Of a DNA stretch of 64,000 nt, positions 18,702 to 31,507 are shown piece by piece. The translations under genes were made by a program, and so were the position numbers. Within the stretch, counting starts at the first letter, position 1, and each line of letters starts with the position of its first letter. The notes under the pieces are model-generated. The model had not been told where the DNA came from, did no database searches, and saw only the letters and a list, made by a program, of their open reading frames with translations. This DNA comes from Vaginimicrobium propionicum (GTDB lineage Bacteria; Actinomycetota; Actinomycetes; Propionibacteriales; Propionibacteriaceae), in the NCBI RefSeq assembly GCF_900155645.1, contig NZ_LT706985.1:1784051-1848050 (forward strand), given 5' to 3'.

Positions 18702-21296
18702 GTGACAAGAATGCGACGCCTGGTGATCGTGGAATCACCAACCAAGGCGAATAAAATCGCTAGTTTCTTAGGCGAGGATTACATCGTTGAATCCAGCCGA
18801 GGCCACGTCCGCGATTTACCCAATAACGCCTCCGAAGTGCCAGCTAAATATAAGACTCAGGCCTGGTCTCGACTAGGCGTAGATATTGACCATGATTTCG
18901 CGCCACTTTATATCGTCAACCCCGAAAAGCGCGCCACGATAAAACGACTAAAAGAACAGTTGAAGAGCGCTGACGAGTTATATCTGGCAACAGATGAAGA
19001 CCGCGAAGGGGAAGCTATCGCCTGGCACCTCTTAGCGGAATTGAAGCCGAAGGTGCCGGTTAAGAGAATGGTGTTCCACGAGATCACGCCGCAGGCGATT
19101 TTCCAGGCAGTAGAAAACCCGCGCGAGATCGATCTTGATTTAGTGGATGCCCAAGAGACTCGCCGGATCTTAGATCGCCTATACGGTTATCAGGTTTCGC
19201 CAGTGCTATGGAAGAAAGTCATGCCGAAACTCTCCGCTGGACGAGTCCAGTCGGTTGCAACCAGGCTGGTTGTCGATCGTGAACGAGAGAGAATCGCGTT
19301 CGTGGCCGCTAAATATTGGGATCTAAGCCTGAAACTAGCCACACAAACCCAAGACACTTTCACGGCTCGACTAGCCGATGTGGCCGGGGTGCGGGTAGCG
19401 CGCGGCACAGATTTCGACGCTAAAGCTAAACTTCGAGCAAATACCTTAGCGTTAAGCGAGCCGGCTGCTGAAAATCTTTCTAAAGCCCTAGTTAAAGCAC
19501 AAATTAGGGTCAGTGATGTGGACGCTAAGCCCTATCGCCGTCGTCCGGCAGCCCCATTTAGAACTACCACTTTGCAGCAAGAGGCCGGACGTAAATTGGG
19601 CTTCGCCACCGAACGTACTATGCGGATTGCTCAGTCTCTCTACGAGTCTGGATTCATCACTTATATGCGTACCGATTCGGTTTCGTTGTCTGGTGAGGCT
19701 ATCCAGGCGGCGCGTGCCCAGGCGGTTCAGCTTTACGGCTCTGACCAAGTGCCCGATAAGCCGCGCATCTATGCGTCCAAGGTGAAGAATGCCCAAGAGG
19801 CTCACGAGGCGATTCGTCCGGCGGGAGATAAGTTCCGTACCCCAGCTCAAACTGGCTTGTCTGGCGATGAACTTCGGCTTTACGAATTGATTTGGCAGCG
19901 CACTGTAGCGTCCCAAATGGCTGATGCTGTGGGGGAGCAAGTTTCAGTAAAAATGTCGGCAGATTTTGCTGCTGGCGTAGATGTTGGGACGGGTGAGCCA
20001 GCCCCTAATGCCGGTTTAGTGGCGTCTGGGCGCACCATAACCTTTGCTGGTTTTATGCGCGCCTATGTGGAATCAACGGCTCAGGGCGAAGAAACGCCAA
20101 GACTGCCAAAGCTGAGCGCCGGGCAGGAAATCAACTTGGTTGAGGCTGCCCCGCTTGGGCATGAGACGAAACCGCCGGCTCGCTACACCGAGCCGAGCTT
20201 GATAGCTAAATTAGAAGAGCTGGAGATTGGCCGACCCTCAACCTATGCCTCGATTATTCGTACCATCACAGCCAGGGACTACGTTTATCGTCGCGGTACT
20301 GCCTTAGTGCCCACCTGGCTAGCATTCGCGGTTACCAGATTATTGGAAGATCATTTCCCCCAGCTAGTTGACTACGCTTTTACTGCTGGTCTAGAGGAAC
20401 ATCTTGATGAGATCGCCAGTGGTCAACGTGCCCGCTTGGAGGTATTAGAGCGGTTCTATCATGGTGGCGGTGGAGCCAAGGGATTAGCCGAGTTGACTAG
20501 CGACTTAGGCGATATTGACGCTAAAGCAACATCCACTTTCCCGCTGGCGGATTCCGGGATTGTGGTGCGCGTGGGACGTTACGGCCCCTACCTTGAACAT
20601 GATGGTAAACGCGCTAATTTGCCCCCCGATTTAGCTCCTGATGAGTTGAATGTTGATAAAGCTGAAGAGTTGCTTACCAGCGGTAGTGATCAGCGTGAGC
20701 TTGGGATAAACCCGAATACTTCACGGATGATAGTGGCTAAGAATGGTCGGTATGGCCCCTATGTCACCGAGATTCTTGAAGATGACGCCCCGAAATCTGC
20801 CAAAGCCAAGACTGCCTCACTATTTAAGACGATGGCCTTGGATACGCTCACTTTGGAACAAGCGGTGAAACTGCTGAGTTTGCCTCGTGTTGTTGGGACA
20901 AGCGATGGAGTGGAGATTACGGCACAAAATGGCCCTTATGGTCCGTATCTGAAGAAGGGTAGCGATACCCGCCAGCTTGCCAATGAGGAGGAGCTGTTTA
21001 CCGTCACTTTGGAGGCGGCAGAGAAATTATTTGCAGAGCCAAAGAAACGGGGGCGTGCCGCAGCGCCAATGCGTGAGTTGGGTAAAGATCCGCAAACCGG
21101 TAAAGAAATGGTGATAAAGACGGGTCGGTTTGGACCTTATATCACTGACGGTGAAACGAACCAGTCCTTGCCGAAATCTCTAGCCATAGACGACATTACG
21201 GCTGAGCAGGCGTCAGAAATGTTGGCGGCTAAACGTGCTAAAGGCCCGGCTAAAAGGCGCACTACTAGAGGCAAAAAAGGCTCGACTAAGAAATAA
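18702..21296 (+). CDS. topA: DNA topoisomerase I
   Basis: Type IA topoisomerase that relaxes negative supercoils. It starts at GTG 18702 with GAGGAA ahead. The Toprim domain opens with LVIVESPTKANKI (E11) and ATDEDREGEAIAWHL; the nucleophile is Y321 in FITYMRTDSVSLS. Instead of zinc ribbons the C-terminus has four GRYGPY-type repeats (TopA_C_3) and a lysine/arginine tail (KRRTTRGKKGSTKK), as in other actinobacteria, which helps processivity. At 864 residues it is full length. tmk follows after a 148-bp gap. Confidence 0.97.
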   Translation: MTRMRRLVIVESPTKANKIASFLGEDYIVESSRGHVRDLPNNASEVPAKYKTQAWSRLGVDIDHDFAPLYIVNPEKRATIKRLKEQLKSADELYLATDEDREGEAIAWHLLAELKPKVPVKRMVFHEITPQAIFQAVENPREIDLDLVDAQETRRILDRLYGYQVSPVLWKKVMPKLSAGRVQSVATRLVVDRERERIAFVAAKYWDLSLKLATQTQDTFTARLADVAGVRVARGTDFDAKAKLRANTLALSEPAAENLSKALVKAQIRVSDVDAKPYRRRPAAPFRTTTLQQEAGRKLGFATERTMRIAQSLYESGFITYMRTDSVSLSGEAIQAARAQAVQLYGSDQVPDKPRIYASKVKNAQEAHEAIRPAGDKFRTPAQTGLSGDELRLYELIWQRTVASQMADAVGEQVSVKMSADFAAGVDVGTGEPAPNAGLVASGRTITFAGFMRAYVESTAQGEETPRLPKLSAGQEINLVEAAPLGHETKPPARYTEPSLIAKLEELEIGRPSTYASIIRTITARDYVYRRGTALVPTWLAFAVTRLLEDHFPQLVDYAFTAGLEEHLDEIASGQRARLEVLERFYHGGGGAKGLAELTSDLGDIDAKATSTFPLADSGIVVRVGRYGPYLEHDGKRANLPPDLAPDELNVDKAEELLTSGSDQRELGINPNTSRMIVAKNGRYGPYVTEILEDDAPKSAKAKTASLFKTMALDTLTLEQAVKLLSLPRVVGTSDGVEITAQNGPYGPYLKKGSDTRQLANEEELFTVTLEAAEKLFAEPKKRGRAAAPMRELGKDPQTGKEMVIKTGRFGPYITDGETNQSLPKSLAIDDITAEQASEMLAAKRAKGPAKRRTTRGKKGSTKK

Positions 21297-21337
21297 TTGT
21301 CACACCAACCTGCGATGATGAGGCCAAAGGAGGTGCG

Positions 21338-21358
21338 GTGAAAATTGGTGTCGATTGA
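21338..21358 (+). other. Six-codon ORF behind a strong Shine-Dalgarno, upstream of tmk
   Basis: AAAGGAGG at about 21326-21333 is followed at normal spacing by GTG and five further sense codons (MKIGVD), then TGA. It is the best ribosome-binding site in this gap, yet it serves only a minimal ORF. It could be a leader peptide for tmk-holB or a chance motif. A longer overlapping frame from TTG 21345 reaches into tmk but has no recognisable coding character. Confidence 0.25.
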
Positions 21359-21444
21359 AGCCGCTGGGGGCAGGCTGTGCAAAAGTTGGCCAAAACAACG
21401 TGAAAGGCTAACACCAGATCTGTCTGCCAAGAAAGAAGCATTTG

Positions 21445-22062
21445 ATGGCTAGCCTTTTTGTGGTTTTTGAGGGTGGGGATTCCGCCGGAAAATCTACCCA
21501 AGCGGCGCTGCTTGCTGAGACTTTGAGAAAAGCTGGGGTTGAACATATTGTCACTCGGCAGCCTGGCGGTACTGCCTCAGGCGAGCGGATTCGTGACCTT
21601 TTGCTCGACCCGAAAGCTGTGTTAGACGATCGTTGTGAAGCCCTGCTTTATGCGGCTGACAAGGCGCAACACGTTAGCGAAGTGATTAGGCCGGCACTAG
21701 CTAGCGGCAAGGTGGTCATATGTGATCGATATTGCGATTCGTTGATCGCCTATCAAGGTGGCGGACGTGGGCTAGATGCTGGTGAGCTAAACCAATTGCT
21801 GCTTTGGGCTACTGGCGGTTTGTTCGCAGATCTGACTATTTTGTTGGATGTTGCCCCTAACCAGGCAGTTAATAATATCTGCGAAAAAGACCGCGTTGAA
21901 GCTGCTGGGGAGGCGTTTCACGCTAGAGTGCGCCAGGGTTTCTTGGACTTGGCAGCTAAAAACCCCAAGCGGTATCTCGTCCTTAATGCGCGCCAAAGTG
22001 TGGCCGATATTGCCACTCAGGTGCGTCAAGCGGTTGGTGAGCGGCTAGGTAGGTCGTTATAG
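21445..22062 (+). CDS. tmk: Thymidylate kinase
   Basis: Phosphorylates dTMP to dTDP. The ATG at 21445 is preferred over a TTG one codon earlier because AGAAAGAAG precedes it. Over 205 residues it shows the P-loop FEGGDSAGKST (8-18), the substrate segment VICDRYCDSLIAYQG, and LLDVAPNQAV. The arginine-rich LID region of the E. coli type is not obvious here. The stop is immediately followed by the ATG of holB, so the two are coupled. Confidence 0.95.
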   Translation: MASLFVVFEGGDSAGKSTQAALLAETLRKAGVEHIVTRQPGGTASGERIRDLLLDPKAVLDDRCEALLYAADKAQHVSEVIRPALASGKVVICDRYCDSLIAYQGGGRGLDAGELNQLLLWATGGLFADLTILLDVAPNQAVNNICEKDRVEAAGEAFHARVRQGFLDLAAKNPKRYLVLNARQSVADIATQVRQAVGERLGRSL

Positions 22063-23241
22063 ATGAGCGTTTGGGACGAATTAGTTAGTCAATCTGGCGC
22101 GGTGGCTGTGCTGCAGGGTGCCGTACAGGCTACCCATGGCGGGGCGAACCGTCACTCGATGAGCCATGCTTGGCTAATTACCGGCCCACCAGGTTCTGGT
22201 CGCTCAAATACTGCTCGCGCCTTTGCTGCTGCGCTCTTGTGCGATGATGACGGTTGCGGTCAGTGTCGCTCATGTAAGACGGTACTTGGTGGCATGCACC
22301 CAGACGTGACAGTATTGGCAACCCAAAAATTATCTATCGGCGTTGATCAGATCCGTGAAATCGCGTTCAAGTCATCTATGAGTCCGACTATTGGTCGTTA
22401 TCAAATAATTATCGTCGAGGATGCAGATCGAGTCACCGGGCGCGGGGCGGATGCGCTACTAAAGTCGCTAGAGGAGCCGCCGGAGAAAACGGTTTGGCTA
22501 TTGTGTGCCCCGACTGCTGATGATGTCGAGATCACTATTCGTTCAAGGTGTCGCAGAGTAGCTTTGCGTACCCCAGCCATCGATGATGTCGTTAACCTGT
22601 TGGTGACTCGCGACGGTATTGACCCGATTATGGCTGACCACGCTGCTCGGGCAGCTGGTGGTCATATTGGCCGCGCCAGGCGGTTAGCCACAGATGAAGT
22701 CGCCCGCAATCTGCGTCGTAATTGGCTGAAAATCCCTAGTCAGCTCACGAGTGTTTCGGCTTGCCTAAATAGTGCTGAGCAGGTTGTTAAAGAAGCTAAT
22801 GCCCAGGCGAGTGCCGCCACCGAAAAGTTGGACGCTAAAGAGTTAGCTGAGTTGCGTCAAGCGCTAGGTTTAGAAACTCGAGGCGTTCGACCGCGCAATA
22901 TCAAAGCCGCCTTGGATTCACTGGCAGACGAGCAGAAAATGCGCTCGAAGAGGTTCGTGCGTGACGAACTAGACCGCGTCCTAACCGAGCTATCTACCTG
23001 GTATCGAGATGTGCTGGCTATCCAACTAGAAGCCGTTGACGACGGTGATGAGGCGGCAGCTGGAGGGCAAACGGGTCTGGTCAACGCGGAATTACGAGCC
23101 GAGATTCGCAGTGCAGCTAACCGTAGTTCTGCCGCCGAGACACTGCGCCGATTGCAGGCGATTCTGGAAGCTAGAAAGATGCTGGATCACAATGTCGCGC
23201 CGTTGTTGGCTTTCGAAGCATTATTCCTTCAATTGGCTTAG
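22063..23241 (+). CDS. holB: DNA polymerase III subunit delta'
   Basis: Clamp-loader subunit of the replicative polymerase. The 392-residue protein has an AAA+ fold whose P-loop reads GPPGSGRS (41-48), with arginine in place of the Walker lysine, as expected for the non-hydrolysing delta' arm. Zinc-module cysteines are at about 60, 65, 68 and 71. EDADRVTGRGADALLKSLEEPP and the SRCR sensor are intact. The C-terminal collar domain is divergent. It begins directly at the tmk stop, the usual tmk-holB pair. Confidence 0.9.
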   Translation: MSVWDELVSQSGAVAVLQGAVQATHGGANRHSMSHAWLITGPPGSGRSNTARAFAAALLCDDDGCGQCRSCKTVLGGMHPDVTVLATQKLSIGVDQIREIAFKSSMSPTIGRYQIIIVEDADRVTGRGADALLKSLEEPPEKTVWLLCAPTADDVEITIRSRCRRVALRTPAIDDVVNLLVTRDGIDPIMADHAARAAGGHIGRARRLATDEVARNLRRNWLKIPSQLTSVSACLNSAEQVVKEANAQASAATEKLDAKELAELRQALGLETRGVRPRNIKAALDSLADEQKMRSKRFVRDELDRVLTELSTWYRDVLAIQLEAVDDGDEAAAGGQTGLVNAELRAEIRSAANRSSAAETLRRLQAILEARKMLDHNVAPLLAFEALFLQLA

Positions 23242-23353
23242 ATGGTAGTCAGCCAGTAGCCTCGGCGTGTCAGCGCCGCCTTAGTGCTAAGTCGGTGCAG
23301 AATTGATTCGTGGTAGTAGGTCTACCGGCAGTTTTATTGGGCTAGGAGTGAAC

Positions 23354-24067
23354 GTGACTAATAATCCGAGTTTTGGGCTTTCCGGAGCTAGCCCTGCCCG
23401 GCCGCGCGACCCTGAAGAGTTGCAGGCACAATCAGAACTAGATTTTTCAACTGCCAGTTCTGAAGAAACTGTGATTGGCGAGGATATGAACATGGTGGCA
23501 AATAACGAATCAGAGCCGACCAGGGTTTACAGCGACGAATTGAGTCAGAGGGATCGCATGCTGGGAACCGTCCAGCCAGATAACACTGAGGTGCCTGTCG
23601 AGCCGAAACTGACTAAACGAGTTACCGATAAATTCTTTGGTGCGTTAGGGCTATTTTTGCTACGCATTGGGCTTGCCGTCGTCATCGCTGTCATTGGTTG
23701 GCAGGTGCTAACCGATCAGACCGGCTACACCACTGGTTTGATAGACGGTGGGCTGCCAGAGGATTACGCGGGCATCATCGCGTTGGTTTGTGGAATCGGT
23801 TTGTTGGTGACCACTATCCTGTTAATTCTTGGTTGGTGTACCCGTGTAGTGTCAGCCTTCGCTACTGTCGGTTCAATCGCGGTTCTGGTGCTCTTCCGTT
23901 TTGGCCCATTCAATCCCGTCATGGCCGGTAGCAGCGGTTTCTACGGCGACCGTGACCTATTAATCACCTTGATTTTCTTCCTGTTGGTGATGCTAGGGCC
24001 TGGTGGCTGGTCAGTGGATTACGCTTATCGACGTGGCCGCCAGAAGAGCAAACTAGAACAGCTCTAA
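23354..24067 (+). CDS. DoxX-like membrane protein
   Basis: The GTG at 23354 with AGGAG five bases upstream is the best start, giving 237 residues. The first about 85 residues are hydrophilic, acidic and probably disordered. Four hydrophobic segments follow (FFGALGLFLLRIGLAVVIAVIGW; YAGIIALVCGIGLLV...; VSAFATVGSIAVLVLF; LLITLIFFLLVMLGPGG), with short loops and a basic end, in the DoxX arrangement. DoxX relatives are associated with thiol and oxidative stress, but no enzymatic residue can be pointed to, so the role here is open. Confidence 0.7.
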   Translation: MTNNPSFGLSGASPARPRDPEELQAQSELDFSTASSEETVIGEDMNMVANNESEPTRVYSDELSQRDRMLGTVQPDNTEVPVEPKLTKRVTDKFFGALGLFLLRIGLAVVIAVIGWQVLTDQTGYTTGLIDGGLPEDYAGIIALVCGIGLLVTTILLILGWCTRVVSAFATVGSIAVLVLFRFGPFNPVMAGSSGFYGDRDLLITLIFFLLVMLGPGGWSVDYAYRRGRQKSKLEQL

Positions 24068-24097
24068 GCTCTGTCACCTCGATTACCGGCGGCAAGA

Positions 24098-24103
24098 TAA
24101 GCT
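24098..24103 (+). promoter_or_regulatory. -10 hexamer six bases before the RicT start codon
   Basis: TAAGCT fits TANNNT and lies exactly 6 nt before ATG 24110. There is no Shine-Dalgarno. This is the spacing of leaderless promoters; no clear -35 is seen. Confidence 0.4.
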
Positions 24104-24109
24104 AACGGT

Positions 24110-24781
24110 ATGGACATCATCGGGGTTGAATTTGATCGCTACGGTCAGCTCCACTATTTGCGTGTCCCAGAAGGTGAATCTTTCAACGTCGGTGACGACG
24201 TCTTGTATCCGACTTCCAGTGGCACTGAGGTTGCAAAGGTTGTTTGGTGTGGGAGCTCAGCATTAACTGATATTCCCCTGTGTCCGGGTCGGGCAGATCA
24301 GGCTGCGATAAGCCGAGATAGTGAAAATAAAGCAGCTAGGGCGAAAGCCCAGTCAGTCGCAACGGAGCTGATTAATCAGCATGGGCTACCAATGCGGGTT
24401 GTTGGCGTAGATTTGCTAGATCGTTCTGATGAATTCGACCGGATGGTGGCCATCTACTATACGGCTCCACACCGAGTAGATTTTCGGGCTTTAGTTCCAG
24501 ATTTAGCGCGTGCCCTGGCAGCCAGAATAGATTTGCGTCAAGTAGGTGCTCGTGACGCCGCCAGGTTAATCGGCGGCGTAGGACGGTGCGGACGCCAGTT
24601 GTGCTGCGCTAATAATCTGGGTTTGTTGGAGCCAATAAGTTTGCGTGAAATCAATTATTCGACTGCAATGCCAGCCACTGGAGCGTGCGGCAGATTGTTG
24701 TGCTGTTTACGCTATGAGGATGATCTACCCTGCGGGCAAGATCCCAACAGCTGCCCGGCCAGCCCATACGCCAACGATTAA
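24110..24781 (+). CDS. PSP1 domain protein, RicT (YaaT)-like
   Basis: A 223-residue PSP1-family protein. The N-terminal half (GVEFDRYGQLHYLRVPEG) and DFRALVPDLARALAARIDLRQVGARDAARLIGG are characteristic, as are the two cysteine clusters GRCGRQLCC and GACGRLLCCLRYED. In Bacillus the homologue RicT is part of the Ric complex affecting RNA processing and carries Fe-S clusters; that function is known from family members only. It often lies next to holB, as here with one gene between. A lipoprotein peptidase begins 8 bp later. Confidence 0.88.
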   Translation: MDIIGVEFDRYGQLHYLRVPEGESFNVGDDVLYPTSSGTEVAKVVWCGSSALTDIPLCPGRADQAAISRDSENKAARAKAQSVATELINQHGLPMRVVGVDLLDRSDEFDRMVAIYYTAPHRVDFRALVPDLARALAARIDLRQVGARDAARLIGGVGRCGRQLCCANNLGLLEPISLREINYSTAMPATGACGRLLCCLRYEDDLPCGQDPNSCPASPYAND

Positions 24782-24789
24782 GGAGTCGC

Positions 24790-26373
24790 GTGCGTCTGCG
24801 TAGAACCTTGAGCGCGCTTTGCGTTGGGCTGTTGTTGACAGCTTGCGCCCCGGCACCCAGCCAACTAGCCCCCACGCCTTCATCACCGTCTCCGACGCCA
24901 ATTCAGCTACCCATACCTGCTAATACCTGGCCTGAGCTAGCCAACCCAGATCGGCGCCAAGTCGATTCCAATGCGAAACCGAGAGTTTTCGTAAACCCGC
25001 CACAAGGAAGCGGATTAGGGCGTTACTTCAACCAGAAACTGCACTGGCAGGAATGTGGCGGTTTTTAGTGCGCCGAATTCGCTGCCCCCCTGGATTGGAA
25101 TAATCCTGACGCTCAAGCCATCACGATAAGCATGAAACGTGCTACAGCCGAGCACAATACCTTGGGCAGCCTATTCATAAATCCTGGTGGGCCAGGCATG
25201 CCAGCCAAAGGTTATGTAGATGATTTCCATCGTTCTCAACTGGCTGGCTATGACATCATCGGCATGGATTCTAGAGGTTCAGGGGATTCCACTCCGGTCG
25301 TTTGTGGCACTACCGAGGAGTTAGATTCCTATTTCGCTGCTGATATCTCACCCGACGATGCTAGTGAAGAGGCTGCGTTAGTGGATGAGGCCAAGAAATT
25401 CGCTGATGGGTGCCGACGAAACTCTGGTGTGCTGTTGGATCACATTTCGACTATCGAGACCATGTATGACTATGACTTGGCTAGGCAGTTAGTTGGGGAT
25501 GAGAAATTGAATTTTTATGGGATTAGCTACGGTACTTTCCTTGGCGCGGTCTACGCAGAGCTTTTCCCAGATAAGGTCGGACGCATGGTTTTAGATGCGC
25601 CCGTGCAGCTTGACCCGAATCAAGAAGTGCCTCAAGCAGTTGGCTTTGAGCGGGCATTGCATGCTTGGGCTGCTTGGTGCGGCGAACAAACCAATGAAAT
25701 TTGTCCCCTCGGAAATAATGAAGACGAAGTAGTGCAGACTTTTGTAGATTTCCTTGAGGCGGTAGACGCTAAACCGTTGCAAACAGGCACACCACGACAA
25801 CTTACTCAATCGTTGGCTGTTTCTGGACTAGCAATATTTTTTTACGGCGGTCAAGAGTATTACCAGCAATTAGCTCAGATTCTGTCTGCCGCTATCCAAA
25901 CGTCTGATGGGTCGGTGTTGCTAATGGCTGCTGACCAGATGAATGATCGCAGCCAGTCCGGTTATTCGTCGCTGGCAACTGCTTTCCCAGCAATATCTTG
26001 TGCCGATACTCAAGATGATGGGCTAGCAGCAAGTTATGCTTACTGGCGCAATGAAGTGATACCTCAGGCTCCAGTATTCGGTAAATTCTTTGGCCCAGAT
26101 GCTTTATGCCCAATCTGGACGGCTAAGCCGATGCCGCGAATCAAGTTTTCCGCTGCTGGGGCTGCCCCGATAGTAGTCGTAGGCTCAACCTTAGATTCTG
26201 CTACCCCCTACGAGCAGGCTGTTACCATGGCAGATTCGTTGGAATCGGCGGTGTTAGTGACTAGAGAAGGCCCTGGACATGGCTCTTTGGGGGATAGCGA
26301 ATGTGTAGATAAAGCAGTATTTAACTACCTCAACCATGGCCGAGTGCCTGCCGAGGGTACTCGCTGCCACTAG
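24790..26373 (+). pseudogene. TAP-like secreted peptidase (alpha/beta hydrolase) broken by an amber codon
   Basis: One continuous frame encodes a lipoprotein (GTG start, AAGGAG upstream, lipobox LLTAC) and an S33-type alpha/beta hydrolase of the tripeptidyl aminopeptidase family, but codon 93 is TAG (25066-25068). On both sides homology-like text is continuous: WQECGGF, stop, CAEFAAPLDWNNPD, where the family usually has a residue such as Q between F and CA. CAG to TAG would be a single transition. Beyond the stop everything is intact: S246 in GISYG, D469 in STLDSATP, H497 in GPGHGS, and the C-terminal TAP domain. It is a recent nonsense mutation, a suppressed stop or a sequencing error. No restart with a Shine-Dalgarno is seen after the stop. 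Confidence 0.85.
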
Positions 26374-26445
26374 GCCTTACGCACCCAACCGTGATATTTT
26401 TTGCACCTATAGCCACCCAGTCGCCCGCATCCAGTGCTGGTGAAG

Positions 26446-26451
26446 TAGATT
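26446..26451 (+). promoter_or_regulatory. -10 hexamer six bases before the amine oxidase GTG
   Basis: TAGATT fits TANNNT and ends 6 nt before the GTG at 26458, where no Shine-Dalgarno is visible. This suggests a leaderless transcript; no -35 match is seen. Confidence 0.35.
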
Positions 26452-26457
26452 GTTTAT

Positions 26458-27804
26458 GTGTTGGATTGCATCATTTTGGGTGCCGGGATTGCCGGTCTAT
26501 ACGCTGCTCGTGAGCTAAAAGCTCAGGGCTTGGAAGTGCTCGTGCTGGAGGCACGCGACGAGGTCGGTGGCAGAATCAGAACCGAAATCGTGCGCGACCA
26601 CGTCATCGAACATGGTGGACAATGGGTTGCTGGCGGGCATCATAAACTGTTGGATCTAATTGAGAAATTTGGTCTGGAGTTAGTTCCAGCACATACTGAA
26701 CGTGCTGTTGTAAAAGTTCAAAATAAACGTTTCATCTCCACCGAGGACAAGGATCGTGCCAAGGCGTTATCGCCTTTCGAAATTGCTGATTTAGGCCAAG
26801 GGTTGATGCGCTTCAGCAGGTTAGCTGCGAGGCTAAATGACGACCCGATCTGGGCTCAGGCCAATACTAAATGGTTAGAGCAATCCTTAAAGCGCTGGGT
26901 AGAAACTAATCTACGCACGCCGGGAGCCAAGCGAGATTTTCTTGACCTGATAAAGGTTGTGATGGCCAAAGATGACCAGGACGCTACCTTGCGTAGCGCA
27001 TTGGAGAAGGGGCCTTCGGCTTTCGATTTAGAGGATATGTTCGCCGTAAATGGTGGATTGAAACAATTCAGGATTCGCGGTGGCATGACCCAAGTCACTA
27101 ATCGGCTAGCTGCAGATTTAGGTGAGGACGCCATTGTTACCGGCGCTGTCGTTACTCACGTTGATTGGCGGGTAGACGAGGTTGTTGTCCACACTCAGGA
27201 CGCTAAGAAGTACACCGCTAAGCAAGCTTTAGTTACGTTGCCACCTTGGTTGGCGCAGCGGTTGGATTACAACCCTCCGCTGCCTGGTTGGCGTGATGAA
27301 GTGGTGGCGCGCACATCGCCAGGCAATGTCATCAAGGCGCACCTAATTTACGACCACCCGTGGTGGTATGACGAGGGTCTTTCCGGTCAATCAAGTTGCG
27401 ATACTGGCGCGGTGCGCGTGACTTTCGACGTCACAGATGACAAAAACGGTCCTGGCGTGTTGATGGGTTTCTTTACTGGGGCTGAGGCATCTACTTTGGT
27501 CAAGCGTTCCGTTTCTCTTAGAGATCGAGTCTTTACGGACGCGGTTGCCGATATCTTGTCTGAAACAGCCCATTGTCCGCATCAATATGTCGATCTGGCT
27601 TGGGCGAATGAGCCATTCAGTGAGGGGTGCCACGGCGCTCACTTCTCGCCCGGCATTTGGACGACCGATGGCCAACTACTTAGCGAGCCGGTCGGCCCGC
27701 TCTACTTCGCTGGATGTGAGTATGCGGATAAGTTTAACGGCTATATTGAGGGTGCCCTGAAATCGGCTGATGAAGCCGTATCGAGAATGAAAGAGCAGCT
27801 TTAG
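26458..27804 (+). CDS. FAD-dependent amine oxidase (monoamine-oxidase family)
   Basis: Flavoenzyme of 448 residues. The dinucleotide fold GAGIAGLYAARELK (8-21) is followed by LEARDEVGGRIRTE and the substrate-domain segment EHGGQWVAGGHH. The C-terminal FAD motif LYFAGCEYADKFNGYIEGALKSA is standard for flavin monoamine oxidases and putrescine oxidases of actinobacteria. It probably oxidises a primary amine to an aldehyde with peroxide release; the substrate is not deducible. Its stop overlaps that of the convergent gene by 4 bp. Confidence 0.88.
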   Translation: MLDCIILGAGIAGLYAARELKAQGLEVLVLEARDEVGGRIRTEIVRDHVIEHGGQWVAGGHHKLLDLIEKFGLELVPAHTERAVVKVQNKRFISTEDKDRAKALSPFEIADLGQGLMRFSRLAARLNDDPIWAQANTKWLEQSLKRWVETNLRTPGAKRDFLDLIKVVMAKDDQDATLRSALEKGPSAFDLEDMFAVNGGLKQFRIRGGMTQVTNRLAADLGEDAIVTGAVVTHVDWRVDEVVVHTQDAKKYTAKQALVTLPPWLAQRLDYNPPLPGWRDEVVARTSPGNVIKAHLIYDHPWWYDEGLSGQSSCDTGAVRVTFDVTDDKNGPGVLMGFFTGAEASTLVKRSVSLRDRVFTDAVADILSETAHCPHQYVDLAWANEPFSEGCHGAHFSPGIWTTDGQLLSEPVGPLYFAGCEYADKFNGYIEGALKSADEAVSRMKEQL

Positions 27805-28760
27805 CCGCGTGCACAACTCGGGGCTGCAAAACCATGTCCCTGAGTCGCTATCACCTTAGCAAGATTGGTGAGTGTAGTGCGTGCCGTTTCCACGTTCGGG
27901 GCGTCTGTGACCATCGCTACACCAACCTCGGTAGTGTCTGGCAAGGCTATTAGACCGCCCTGGCGTAATTCCACATCTCCAGTGGGGGTACTGCCTTGGC
28001 CAGCCTTAGAAAATGCCCTAGGTAGCGTGGCTAGCCCGAATTCTATTTCGCGACTTTCGTCCAGTCGAGTCATGACGTCAACGACCCTTAGCCAATCACA
28101 CCTAATGGAAGCGAAAAACTCAGCTTGCGAATCTAGACGCCAAACCGTTTGGGTATATGGCGGATTATCTACGTTAGTGCTGGCCGGCACGGTTGTTGCC
28201 CAATCGCCGTAGCGTCGTAACATGGCCATGGTCTTTTCGCTAGCTTGGTCGCCAGAACCTAGAAATGCCCACAGTGCGTCGTCGCCGGCTTGGGAGTCTT
28301 CTACCAGAGAGCGGCGGAATAGGTAGTTAGCGTCTTCTGGCTGCTTTGGCTCATTCAAGACTGCGATCGCCGTGGCCACATCTATGGTTGACCAGGCCAA
28401 GCCAGATCTTAGACTGCCCCCTGACCAGGTGGATTGGGTGCGAGTGTCCCGATCGGCGATAGACGTTATCGCAACCCCAACAAGGACGCCCTGCCTGGAT
28501 TCGATTTCTGCTATCGTGTTCTCGATTGCCGCCTGTTGGGGTGGAGTGCTTAATTGTGGTTTAGATGTGGGCAGCTGTTCAATGTTTAGCGAGGGAGTGA
28601 ATGTTGGGGCGGGGATAGGTCCGCTGCCAGCTCTAGATACTCCGATCATCGTTAGCAATAGCAATGTGAAGACCATTACTGTGATGACTAAGCCAATCGG
28701 GGCATGCCAAAACCAACGAAAACGCTTACGTAATCGTTTCGTTGCGTCGCTAATGGGCAT
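27801..28760 (-). CDS. Membrane-anchored extracellular protein, beta-lactamase-like fold without SxxK
   Basis: A 319-residue protein with a basic N-terminus, one membrane segment (about 21-42) and a Pro/Thr/Ser linker. The outside domain follows the class A beta-lactamase pattern loosely: AIENTIAEIESRQGVLVGVAITSI at the start, LAWSTIDVATAIAVL where STxK would be expected, a SGDQASEKTMAMLRRYG helix, and LRQGGLIALPDTTEVGVAMVTDAP near the KTG strand. The catalytic lysine is absent (STID), so it is likely a non-catalytic relative or a serine hydrolase of another kind. This fold call is inference. Confidence 0.55.
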   Translation of the reverse strand: MPISDATKRLRKRFRWFWHAPIGLVITVMVFTLLLLTMIGVSRAGSGPIPAPTFTPSLNIEQLPTSKPQLSTPPQQAAIENTIAEIESRQGVLVGVAITSIADRDTRTQSTWSGGSLRSGLAWSTIDVATAIAVLNEPKQPEDANYLFRRSLVEDSQAGDDALWAFLGSGDQASEKTMAMLRRYGDWATTVPASTNVDNPPYTQTVWRLDSQAEFFASIRCDWLRVVDVMTRLDESREIEFGLATLPRAFSKAGQGSTPTGDVELRQGGLIALPDTTEVGVAMVTDAPNVETARTTLTNLAKVIATQGHGFAAPSCARG

Positions 28761-28863
28761 TGGATCAATCTCCAGGTAAATTTTGTCAGTGGTAGCAACT
28801 ACGCTAACTGAGATATTCTCATTCTCTCAGGTAGCTGGCCAATCTGAAAGTGGGTAGTAACGG

Positions 28864-29895
28864 ATGTATTGCGCGCGATGCGGCAATGAAGTCGGCGTCC
28901 GTGACCTCAGATGCGCTATGTGTGATGCTGATTTGAATTCATCGGGCGCGCTGAGATTGACTGACCCACGTCTTGACCCGAATTTTGTGCCTGTCGGTGT
29001 ATCGGACGAAACTCAAGGCGCAGTTGACGTTGACAGCCAAGAAAACGTTGAAGATGCTCAGCTAGATGCTGTGGAAAAAAGTTCGCTAGCTGAGTCCGGG
29101 CAGGTGATCGACGAGGCGGAAGCCAGCGGCGAGGAGGAAACTGGGTCTGAAAACGGTGGCGATATTGACCAGCCCAGCGATGAAAATGAGAGCGGCGATT
29201 CTGGCGAGGCGGGGGAAGCCCCGACAGCGAGCGATGAAGGCTCTGCCAGTGACGAAACCGTTAGCGATGAGGCTGGCAACAAGAAAGATAAGTGGTCAAC
29301 AAAGTTTGCTGAACAAGTATCAGACAAAGTTGGTGATCTCAAAGATGAGGTTGCCAAGCTAAATACTGCGTTGAGTGAGCCGGAAAATCTTCGACAACTA
29401 GCCAAAACGCTTGGCTACGACACCCAGCGGGTGGCTCCAGCAAAAGTCATGGGGGTGCTGGCGATTTTAGCGTTCGCAATTGTCATCATGGTTGTTTTAA
29501 TGGGGCAGCTGATGAATATCGACAAAGTGCTGCTGCCAGAGATAATTCACACCCCCACGCCTTCGGCTTCGGCCAGCAAAACCCCAGCAACGCAGTCCCA
29601 AAGCCCATCGCCGTCTGGCTCGGCTCAGCCTGAAGAGGCTGTCAGCGAAACCCCGAAGATGATTGAGGGGGCAAAGGAATGCGACCCAGGCGTTTGGGCG
29701 GGTCCGCAAACTTCTTGCCCGCTGGCTAATGCAGTCGGCGAAAAAGTTGACCGTAAATTGGACGGGGCAATCGACATCAGTGCGGTTAGTTCCGTAACAC
29801 AGCGTGAATACACTTTGCATTGCACATCAGGTCACGGCATAACCTGCGAAGGTACCGGGGACGTTGAGGGAGTTCTTGTCTGGTTGGTTGCCTAG
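28864..29895 (+). CDS. Zinc-ribbon membrane protein with extracellular Cys domain
   Basis: 343 residues in four parts: a zinc ribbon at the start (C3, C6, C17, C20), a long acidic Glu/Asp/Ser/Gly-rich stretch to about 140, a single membrane helix near 195-217 (VMGVLAILAFAIVIMVVLMG), and after a Ser/Pro/Thr linker a C-terminal domain of about 75 residues with four cysteines (ECDPGVW, TSCPLA, LHCTSGHGITCEG). The ribbon is cytoplasmic and the tail domain outside. Similar tail domains occur in actinobacterial surface proteins of unknown role. Its stop shares CTAG with the convergent methyltransferase. Confidence 0.65.
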   Translation: MYCARCGNEVGVRDLRCAMCDADLNSSGALRLTDPRLDPNFVPVGVSDETQGAVDVDSQENVEDAQLDAVEKSSLAESGQVIDEAEASGEEETGSENGGDIDQPSDENESGDSGEAGEAPTASDEGSASDETVSDEAGNKKDKWSTKFAEQVSDKVGDLKDEVAKLNTALSEPENLRQLAKTLGYDTQRVAPAKVMGVLAILAFAIVIMVVLMGQLMNIDKVLLPEIIHTPTPSASASKTPATQSQSPSPSGSAQPEEAVSETPKMIEGAKECDPGVWAGPQTSCPLANAVGEKVDRKLDGAIDISAVSSVTQREYTLHCTSGHGITCEGTGDVEGVLVWLVA

Positions 29896-30875
29896 GCTCT
29901 GGCAACTATCAAATCGCGGTTAATGGACGAATCCACGCGGTGAGCAAAATCACCCCAAGACGGGTCTTGGGGCAGCTTCAGCCCTGCGTCTTTTAGCGCG
30001 TTTTCTAAATCTGGCCTAGACATCGAATAAGTATTCCAGCTAATTCCTAGTGCTCCTCCGCTGCGCAATTGGCTCGCCCAAATCGGGATAGCCTCAGTTA
30101 AGAGCTGCTTAGCTGATCGGTGGCGTTCGCCTCCGTCATTACTAGAGTGCCTAACCCCATAGGGGGCGTCGGTGATGATGGCGTCGAAAGTTTTTTTGCC
30201 ATAAAGCATCTTTGAATCGCGGGTATCACCGCTCATGACAACCATGGAAACTTGTTTTTCACCCACACTGGCTTGAACGTCAAGCTTCATGCCGAGTTTT
30301 CGTCCATCTCGTCTTATTGGCACTAAAGATGCTTTGTGTTTGTAGTGGCCTCGTCGCAAATAAGTTTTAATGAAAGTTTCTATGCTGGCTATTGCCTTTT
30401 GGTCTTGTTCAACCCCGTAACTGTTAAAGCCGTTTAACCATGCAGTTGTTAAGGTGGTGCCGCGTCCAGCCATCGGATCTAGAATATCTAGCTTTTCCCC
30501 ACGATTGGCTAGGGTGGTTTTCACCTGGGAGAGGGTCAAATGGACGAGCATTTGGGTGAATAATTCATTGGTTTTCCCCCGATATTTCGGGATGGTTACC
30601 AGATCATCGGGGAAAACTCGCCAATTTGGTAATGCCACAGGCTTCAACCACTCGTCATGGCGCTCAAAGGCCACTAATGCACATGATTGGCGCGCTAGCG
30701 CCACTAAATCTAGGTTATCGGCGTTAAAAGTTAACGCACCCACCTGATCTAGCCAGGTGATTTCAGCTTGAATGCCAGTAGTCACGGCCAATTCAGCTTT
30801 CGCTAAGGCCGGAGTAGCCTCGGCGAAAACTCGATTAGCGGACGGGGCAAGCAGCAGTAAATATTGGGCTGCCAT
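29892..30875 (-). CDS. TRM11-like SAM methyltransferase
   Basis: A 327-residue Rossmann methyltransferase. Motif I is DPMAGRGTTLTTAWLNG, the adenine-contact acidic residue is in GVEQDQ, and the catalytic loop is ITDAPYGVR, a (D/N)PPY-type motif altered to DAPYG as in the Trm11/THUMP tRNA guanine-N2 methyltransferases. The N-terminal third (YLLLLAPSANRVFAEATPALAKAEL) also resembles that family but lacks a clear THUMP domain. Target RNA is inferred. It precedes ppa's stop by a short gap on the same strand. Confidence 0.75.
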   Translation of the reverse strand: MAAQYLLLLAPSANRVFAEATPALAKAELAVTTGIQAEITWLDQVGALTFNADNLDLVALARQSCALVAFERHDEWLKPVALPNWRVFPDDLVTIPKYRGKTNELFTQMLVHLTLSQVKTTLANRGEKLDILDPMAGRGTTLTTAWLNGFNSYGVEQDQKAIASIETFIKTYLRRGHYKHKASLVPIRRDGRKLGMKLDVQASVGEKQVSMVVMSGDTRDSKMLYGKKTFDAIITDAPYGVRHSSNDGGERHRSAKQLLTEAIPIWASQLRSGGALGISWNTYSMSRPDLENALKDAGLKLPQDPSWGDFAHRVDSSINRDLIVARA

Positions 30876-30893
30876 CAGTTAGTTCAAATCGAC

Positions 30894-31430
30894 CTAATGT
30901 TGTTCGTACGGGGTGCCCTTAGCGCGTTCGAGGGAGGCGCGCACTTCTTTTTCGGCTTCGATGCGTCCTACCCAAGTGGCGCCTTCAACCGATTTGCCTG
31001 GTTCCAAATCTTTATAGACGGTAAAGAAGTGCTCAATCTCTAAGAGCATGAATTCTGGAATGTCGTCCAGATCATCCATGTAGTCGCGCCGCGAATCAGC
31101 GGTTGGGATGCAGAGTACTTTGTCGTCGCCGCCCATCTCGTCTTGCATTTTGAACATGGCGATTGCGCGACATTCCACCAGGCAACCGGGGAAAGTGGAT
31201 TCCGGCAAGATGACCATCGCATCTAGCGGGTCACCGTCTTCACCTAGAGTTCCGTCAATAAACCCGTAGTCATACGGATATTGGGTGGAGGTGAATAGTG
31301 TCCGGTCGAGACGGATACGGCCAGTGTTGTGGTCCATCTCGTACTTGTTCTTAGTGCCACGCGGAATTTCAACGGTCATGTCGAAAGTGAAACGGGCTCT
31401 AGAATCGACCTTACTTAAATCTTCGCTCAT
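30894..31430 (-). CDS. ppa: Inorganic pyrophosphatase
   Basis: Hydrolyses pyrophosphate, pulling biosynthetic reactions forward. The start at 31430 (MSEDLSK) is preferred to an ATG three codons earlier because AAGG abuts that earlier codon and is better spaced for the later one. Over 178 residues it shows [14 protein letters not shown], the [11 protein letters not shown] strand and the acidic Mg site DGDPLDAMV with DLDDIP downstream. It is divergent from the dac gene, the same ppa-dac pairing as in mycobacteria. Confidence 0.96.
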
Positions 31431-31507
31431 TACTGTCATCCTTATGCTGAAGGGCGAAAGTCCATACCTAACTATGAAATTATCTTGTTTTTAAGGAGAT
31501 GGAGCCA

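Follow-up and report, generated by a model that had tools for sequence, protein, structure and literature searches.

An amber codon interrupts an otherwise intact TAP-like peptidase gene of Vaginimicrobium propionicum

Organization of the interrupted gene

The gene described here lies on the forward strand of a 64,000-nucleotide stretch of the Vaginimicrobium propionicum genome (‘the window’; all positions are counted from its first letter). Direct reading of positions 24790-26373 gave one frame of 527 codons plus a final TAG, with a GTG start and a sole internal stop, the TAG at 25066-25068, which is codon 93. The lipobox (LTAC, with the Cys19 codon at 24844-24846) is located upstream of this TAG. 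An earlier note on the same DNA had described a frame intact save for one amber codon, with the lipobox before it and the Ser-Asp-His triad after it, and this description was confirmed by direct reading and by alignment. The features of the locus are as follows:

24780-24785, + strand: Shine-Dalgarno-like AAGGAG, overlapping the TAA of the upstream gene (read directly)
24790-25068, + strand: 5′ part with signal peptide, lipobox (Cys19) and Pro/Ser-rich linker; a 92-residue ORF up to the TAG (frame read; features recognized by eye)
25066-25068, + strand: in-frame TAG, codon 93 (read directly; no stop at this site in the homologues examined)
25069-26373, + strand: 3′ part with a complete TAP-like alpha/beta hydrolase domain and Ser-Asp-His, 434 codons plus TAG (Pfam, Hip1 profile, structure model)
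25132-26373, + strand: ORF of 413 aa from the first ATG, GTG or TTG after the stop (ORF reading; no Shine-Dalgarno sequence by eye)

By eye, the 5′ part (24790-25068) resembled the same stretch of relatives, including the RYxxQxxxWxxC pattern, and it gave no Pfam match. The 434 codons after the stop matched PF08386 (TAP-like C-terminal domain; 1.6e-22, 80 bits against a curated cut-off of 21) and PF00561 (Abhydrolase_1; 5.2e-18), and matches to NCBIfam were all far below the cut-offs. Ser (25525-25527, GISYG), Asp (26194-26196, DSATP) and His (26278-26280, GHG) occupy columns that are invariant in 19 aligned sequences. In the numbering of the 434-residue part these are S153, D376 and H404, which we take to be the catalytic triad from their role in the family. 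A profile of the 19 sequences matched Hip1 of M. tuberculosis over the whole hydrolase domain (6.6e-90). For the sequence downstream of the TAG, structure prediction gave a confident model (pLDDT 93, pTM 0.91), whose best PDB matches were Hip1 entries, with TM scores of 0.91-0.92 at 29-30% identity. The resemblance goes beyond chance, since Pfam matches were obtained and the alignment with the homologues begins directly behind the stop, at the first codon, while the frames of the homologues continue upstream of it. The exported lipoprotein N-terminus and the domain are not joined in one unbroken frame, as the TAG separates the lipobox from the domain. Judged by its sequence, the gene descends from the TAP-like/Hip1-type family, but the product of standard decoding is no member of it.

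Distribution and gene neighborhood

A peptidase match was found in 123 of the 147 Propionibacteriaceae genomes, V. propionicum included. The other 24, some of which are incomplete, gave none, and among near-complete family genomes the match was lacking in 16/116. Absence from 24/147 genomes is evidently tolerated, and the gene is therefore dispensable. None of the four listed genomes of one genus (g22), all of them at least 99% complete, had a match, and the gene seems to be absent there. In tblastn searches of plasmids with the peptidase, only matches below 60% identity were obtained, and a first contig scan with a single protein as the query gave no match.

A topA-tmk-holB-DoxX block was located beside the gene in seven of eight relatives, the gene labels being our own reading; in the eighth, whose contig is 17.7 kb long, DoxX and PSP1 were found upstream of the gene. 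The truncating lesion was absent from the orthologues in this conserved locus. A 14-kb piece of a 2.0-Mb family member (L082), likely the nearest relative among the eight compared, kept the order of the window from topA to ppa (18702 to 31439), minus the gene at 29892-30875, and so conserved a longer part of it than the other seven did. Elsewhere in the window, within 27801-28826 on the minus strand, the ORF that begins at 28760 has 22 coding-like codons in the same frame ahead of its first start; a less common start codon upstream may be the true beginning of this gene.

Only one full-length peptidase match was present in the V. propionicum genome. The single other PF08386 match was a 583-codon frame, which from its sequence we take to be an S9-type peptidase. 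It resembled the peptidase weakly (26.6% identity over query residues 339-405, E 0.003), and a backup paralogue was accordingly rejected.

The codon-93 site in relatives

The site of codon 93 was read in 109 homologous loci (107 distinct, as two pairs had identical DNA), comprising 29 from Propionibacteriaceae and 80 from named records, the latter being the best 80 of at least 589 confirmed. Two of the family loci (L016 and L017) had the same DNA as the records of a Propionibacteriaceae MAG and of Propionibacterium sp. oral taxon 192, which identifies the family searched as Propionibacteriaceae. The 29 family loci were read as DNA from the 122 relatives with a match, as were loci from 9 more of those relatives; the short frames G048 and G141 at contig edges were left out, and the remaining relatives entered as table rows only.

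A stop at the site was found in 0/109 loci (107 distinct) and in 0/9 further loci; the genus-level search covered the present genome alone. All 29 family loci were in frame for at least 89 codons upstream of the site. The 80 best-listed named loci likewise all read through it; the frame spans 59 codons in one of them (L109) and at least 60 in the other 79. The nine further loci, which include most of the shortest frames, also cross the site; in two of the loci (L181 and L185) just 35 and 23 codons precede the contig end, and L183 is probably the same place as L113, the two contigs being equally long. As far as was seen in the sequences of these relatives, the stop thus appears private to the present genome. 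Homologues that end at this position and are followed by a separate downstream gene, an arrangement that the earlier note had considered, are ruled out for the loci read, all of which cross the site.

Of the 109 loci, 57 have Q at the site, 37 have E, 7 R, 3 D and 2 L, while V, T and M occur once each. The suggestion that the stop replaces a set family residue before the CAxxxxPLDW block was not borne out, as eight different residues occur there. A single CAG to TAG change, as proposed in the earlier note, is plausible; the parental codon can only be inferred, because the residue at this site is variable among relatives.

Decoding of TAG

The open frame itself, and nothing else, speaks for TAG being read as an amino acid, whether throughout the genome or with the help of a dedicated suppressor tRNA. 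Both release factors were present in open frames: RF1 with 461.8 bits against a cut-off of 423.25, and RF2 with 501.3 bits against a cut-off of 370. Scores above the Rfam cut-off were obtained at 46 tRNA places of the genome; ARAGORN also called every one of these as a tRNA, and none of the 46 carried a CUA anticodon. In 304 kb, made up of the window and twelve 20-kb stretches, TAG was the terminal stop of 51 of the 161 long stop-to-stop frames and is thus an ordinary stop in this organism. An amber suppressor tRNA or altered code was rejected on these grounds and its probability is close to nil; the suppression considered in the earlier note, and the suppressor tRNA it had proposed to look for, found no support.

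No Rfam match or tRNA was found in the window. The fold of the 101 bases from 25060 had a z-score of 0.54 and was equalled or surpassed in stability by 133 of 200 shuffles, and an RNA element after the stop was rejected because this fold is no better than chance. A-to-I editing was also considered and discounted.

Screens for other interrupted genes

The genome consists of one contig and is 99.95% complete, and 304 kb of its 2.01 Mb were screened for further interruptions. A first screen, for interruptions within the same frame, gave 6 hits among 128 pairs. Two of these were in the window and were ordinary gene junctions by eye, and in the other four a start codon followed 1 to 4 codons past the stop. 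This screen was insensitive, as the codon-93 TAG itself went unflagged because the N-terminal part scores low. A second screen, of 244 coding-like segments, picked out 14 places, the codon-93 case included. Ten of the other 13 were scanned with Pfam: three were without a match, and in seven the best stretch began after the first start codon, which gives no sign of interruption. Three of the seven (L090, L091 and the minus-strand L095) carry little weight in this respect, as the Pfam stretch begins well inside. A second interrupted gene was therefore not shown in the 304-kb sample, in which both screens were weak.

Age of any loss of constraint

The 434 codons after the stop have retained 72/72 residues on which the 18 other sequences of the alignment all agree, and these 18 show 0 to 5 private departures each. 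Under a simple model with transitions given double weight, one unconstrained substitution per site would be expected to produce approximately 149 changes at the 72 residues and 48 new stops. As none of these were seen, any loss of constraint dates back no further than approximately 0.015 substitutions per site (95% bound). A recent loss and unbroken constraint are both compatible with this bound. The observation in the earlier note that the remaining coding sequence is free of other decay holds, with no further stop and every invariant residue in place. A recent event, as the note had also proposed, is supported by the same evidence, unless constraint was never lost.

Interpretation of the interrupted frame

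We consider it fairly probable that the TAG is a recent single-base nonsense allele that inactivates the sole gene for a TAP-like/Hip1-type lipoprotein peptidase detected in this genome. The stop itself, the intact remainder, the standard termination machinery without an amber tRNA and the absence of a stop in the relatives examined were all observed. According to the proposed course of events, one base would have changed recently to create the TAG at codon 93; translation would start at the GTG at 24790 and be ended by RF1 at codon 93, so that the product would be a lipoprotein stub of 92 residues lacking the catalytic domain. This presupposes a real base, a single-base change, efficient termination and an inert stub. 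An identical intact coding sequence would, however, be left by a sequencing error or by a leaky stop in use.

If the TAG were a wrong base call from sequencing or assembly, the real gene would be intact, and the stop would be expected as the sole lesion in a sequence without decay, as is the case. With no other interrupted gene shown in 304 kb by the weak screens, assuming a single wrong base is no more complicated than assuming a single mutation. The same lack of a second interruption, together with the single contig and its completeness, nevertheless mildly favours an accurate assembly, and we regard such an error as unlikely, if the most credible of the alternatives to a nonsense allele. 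Leaky termination, in which near-cognate tRNAs read UAG at a low level to give a little full-length enzyme with the stop as a dampener, would also agree with the full conservation of the remainder. In their 2021 survey, Belinky et al. reported that in-frame stops with dN/dS below 1 are numerous and widespread in bacteria, and suggested that readthrough is frequent (PMC7918605). RF1 is present in V. propionicum, however, and no amber tRNA was found; the downstream RNA structure is no better than chance, and the stop is absent from every relative examined. Leaky termination is accordingly rather improbable. Still less probable is that the amber codon is used as a low-level readthrough switch which keeps a surface peptidase scarce in a bacterium whose release factors are ordinary and which lacks a suppressor tRNA.

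Translation could also restart after the stop, the first candidate being the ATG at 25132, to yield a cytosolic hydrolase, as the 413-residue ORF that begins there has the full triad. No Shine-Dalgarno sequence was seen by eye before this ATG, and a restart at residue 22 of 434 would, according to the structure model, remove strand 2-7 of the predicted core and the beginning of strand 17-25, in addition to the signal peptide. Among the residues missing would be C1, P7, L8, D9, P13 and A17, which are invariant in the 19 sequences, and we consider such a restart very unlikely.

With a nonsense allele as the preferred reading, the finding is correctly observed and ordinary. The gene should be annotated as interrupted, and an amber code is not needed for the organism; otherwise the finding is of little consequence. 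Were readthrough shown, this would be a further case of a conserved bacterial gene that tolerates an in-frame stop.

Comparison with known systems

The gene resembles M. tuberculosis Hip1 (Rv2224c, carboxylesterase A; PDB 5ugq, 5uoh, 7sfm and 8e5w) in its hydrolase domain, both by profile and by fold, and in the presence of Ser, Asp and His. Hip1 has been described as a cell-envelope-associated serine protease (PMC4022732). The V. propionicum gene differs in its internal TAG before the domain and belongs to another bacterial family. Closer counterparts are the TAP-like orthologues of Propionibacteriaceae (PF08386 and PF00561), which share up to 57% identity, an upstream stretch that by eye is similarly lipoprotein-like, and the same neighborhood, whereas those examined are uninterrupted at the codon-93 site. 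The cases of Belinky et al. are alike in that a single in-frame stop breaks a gene that is conserved in other respects. The focus of that survey was on stops found in orthologues of at least two species, whereas the V. propionicum stop is known from one genome and would fall outside that set (PMC7918605).
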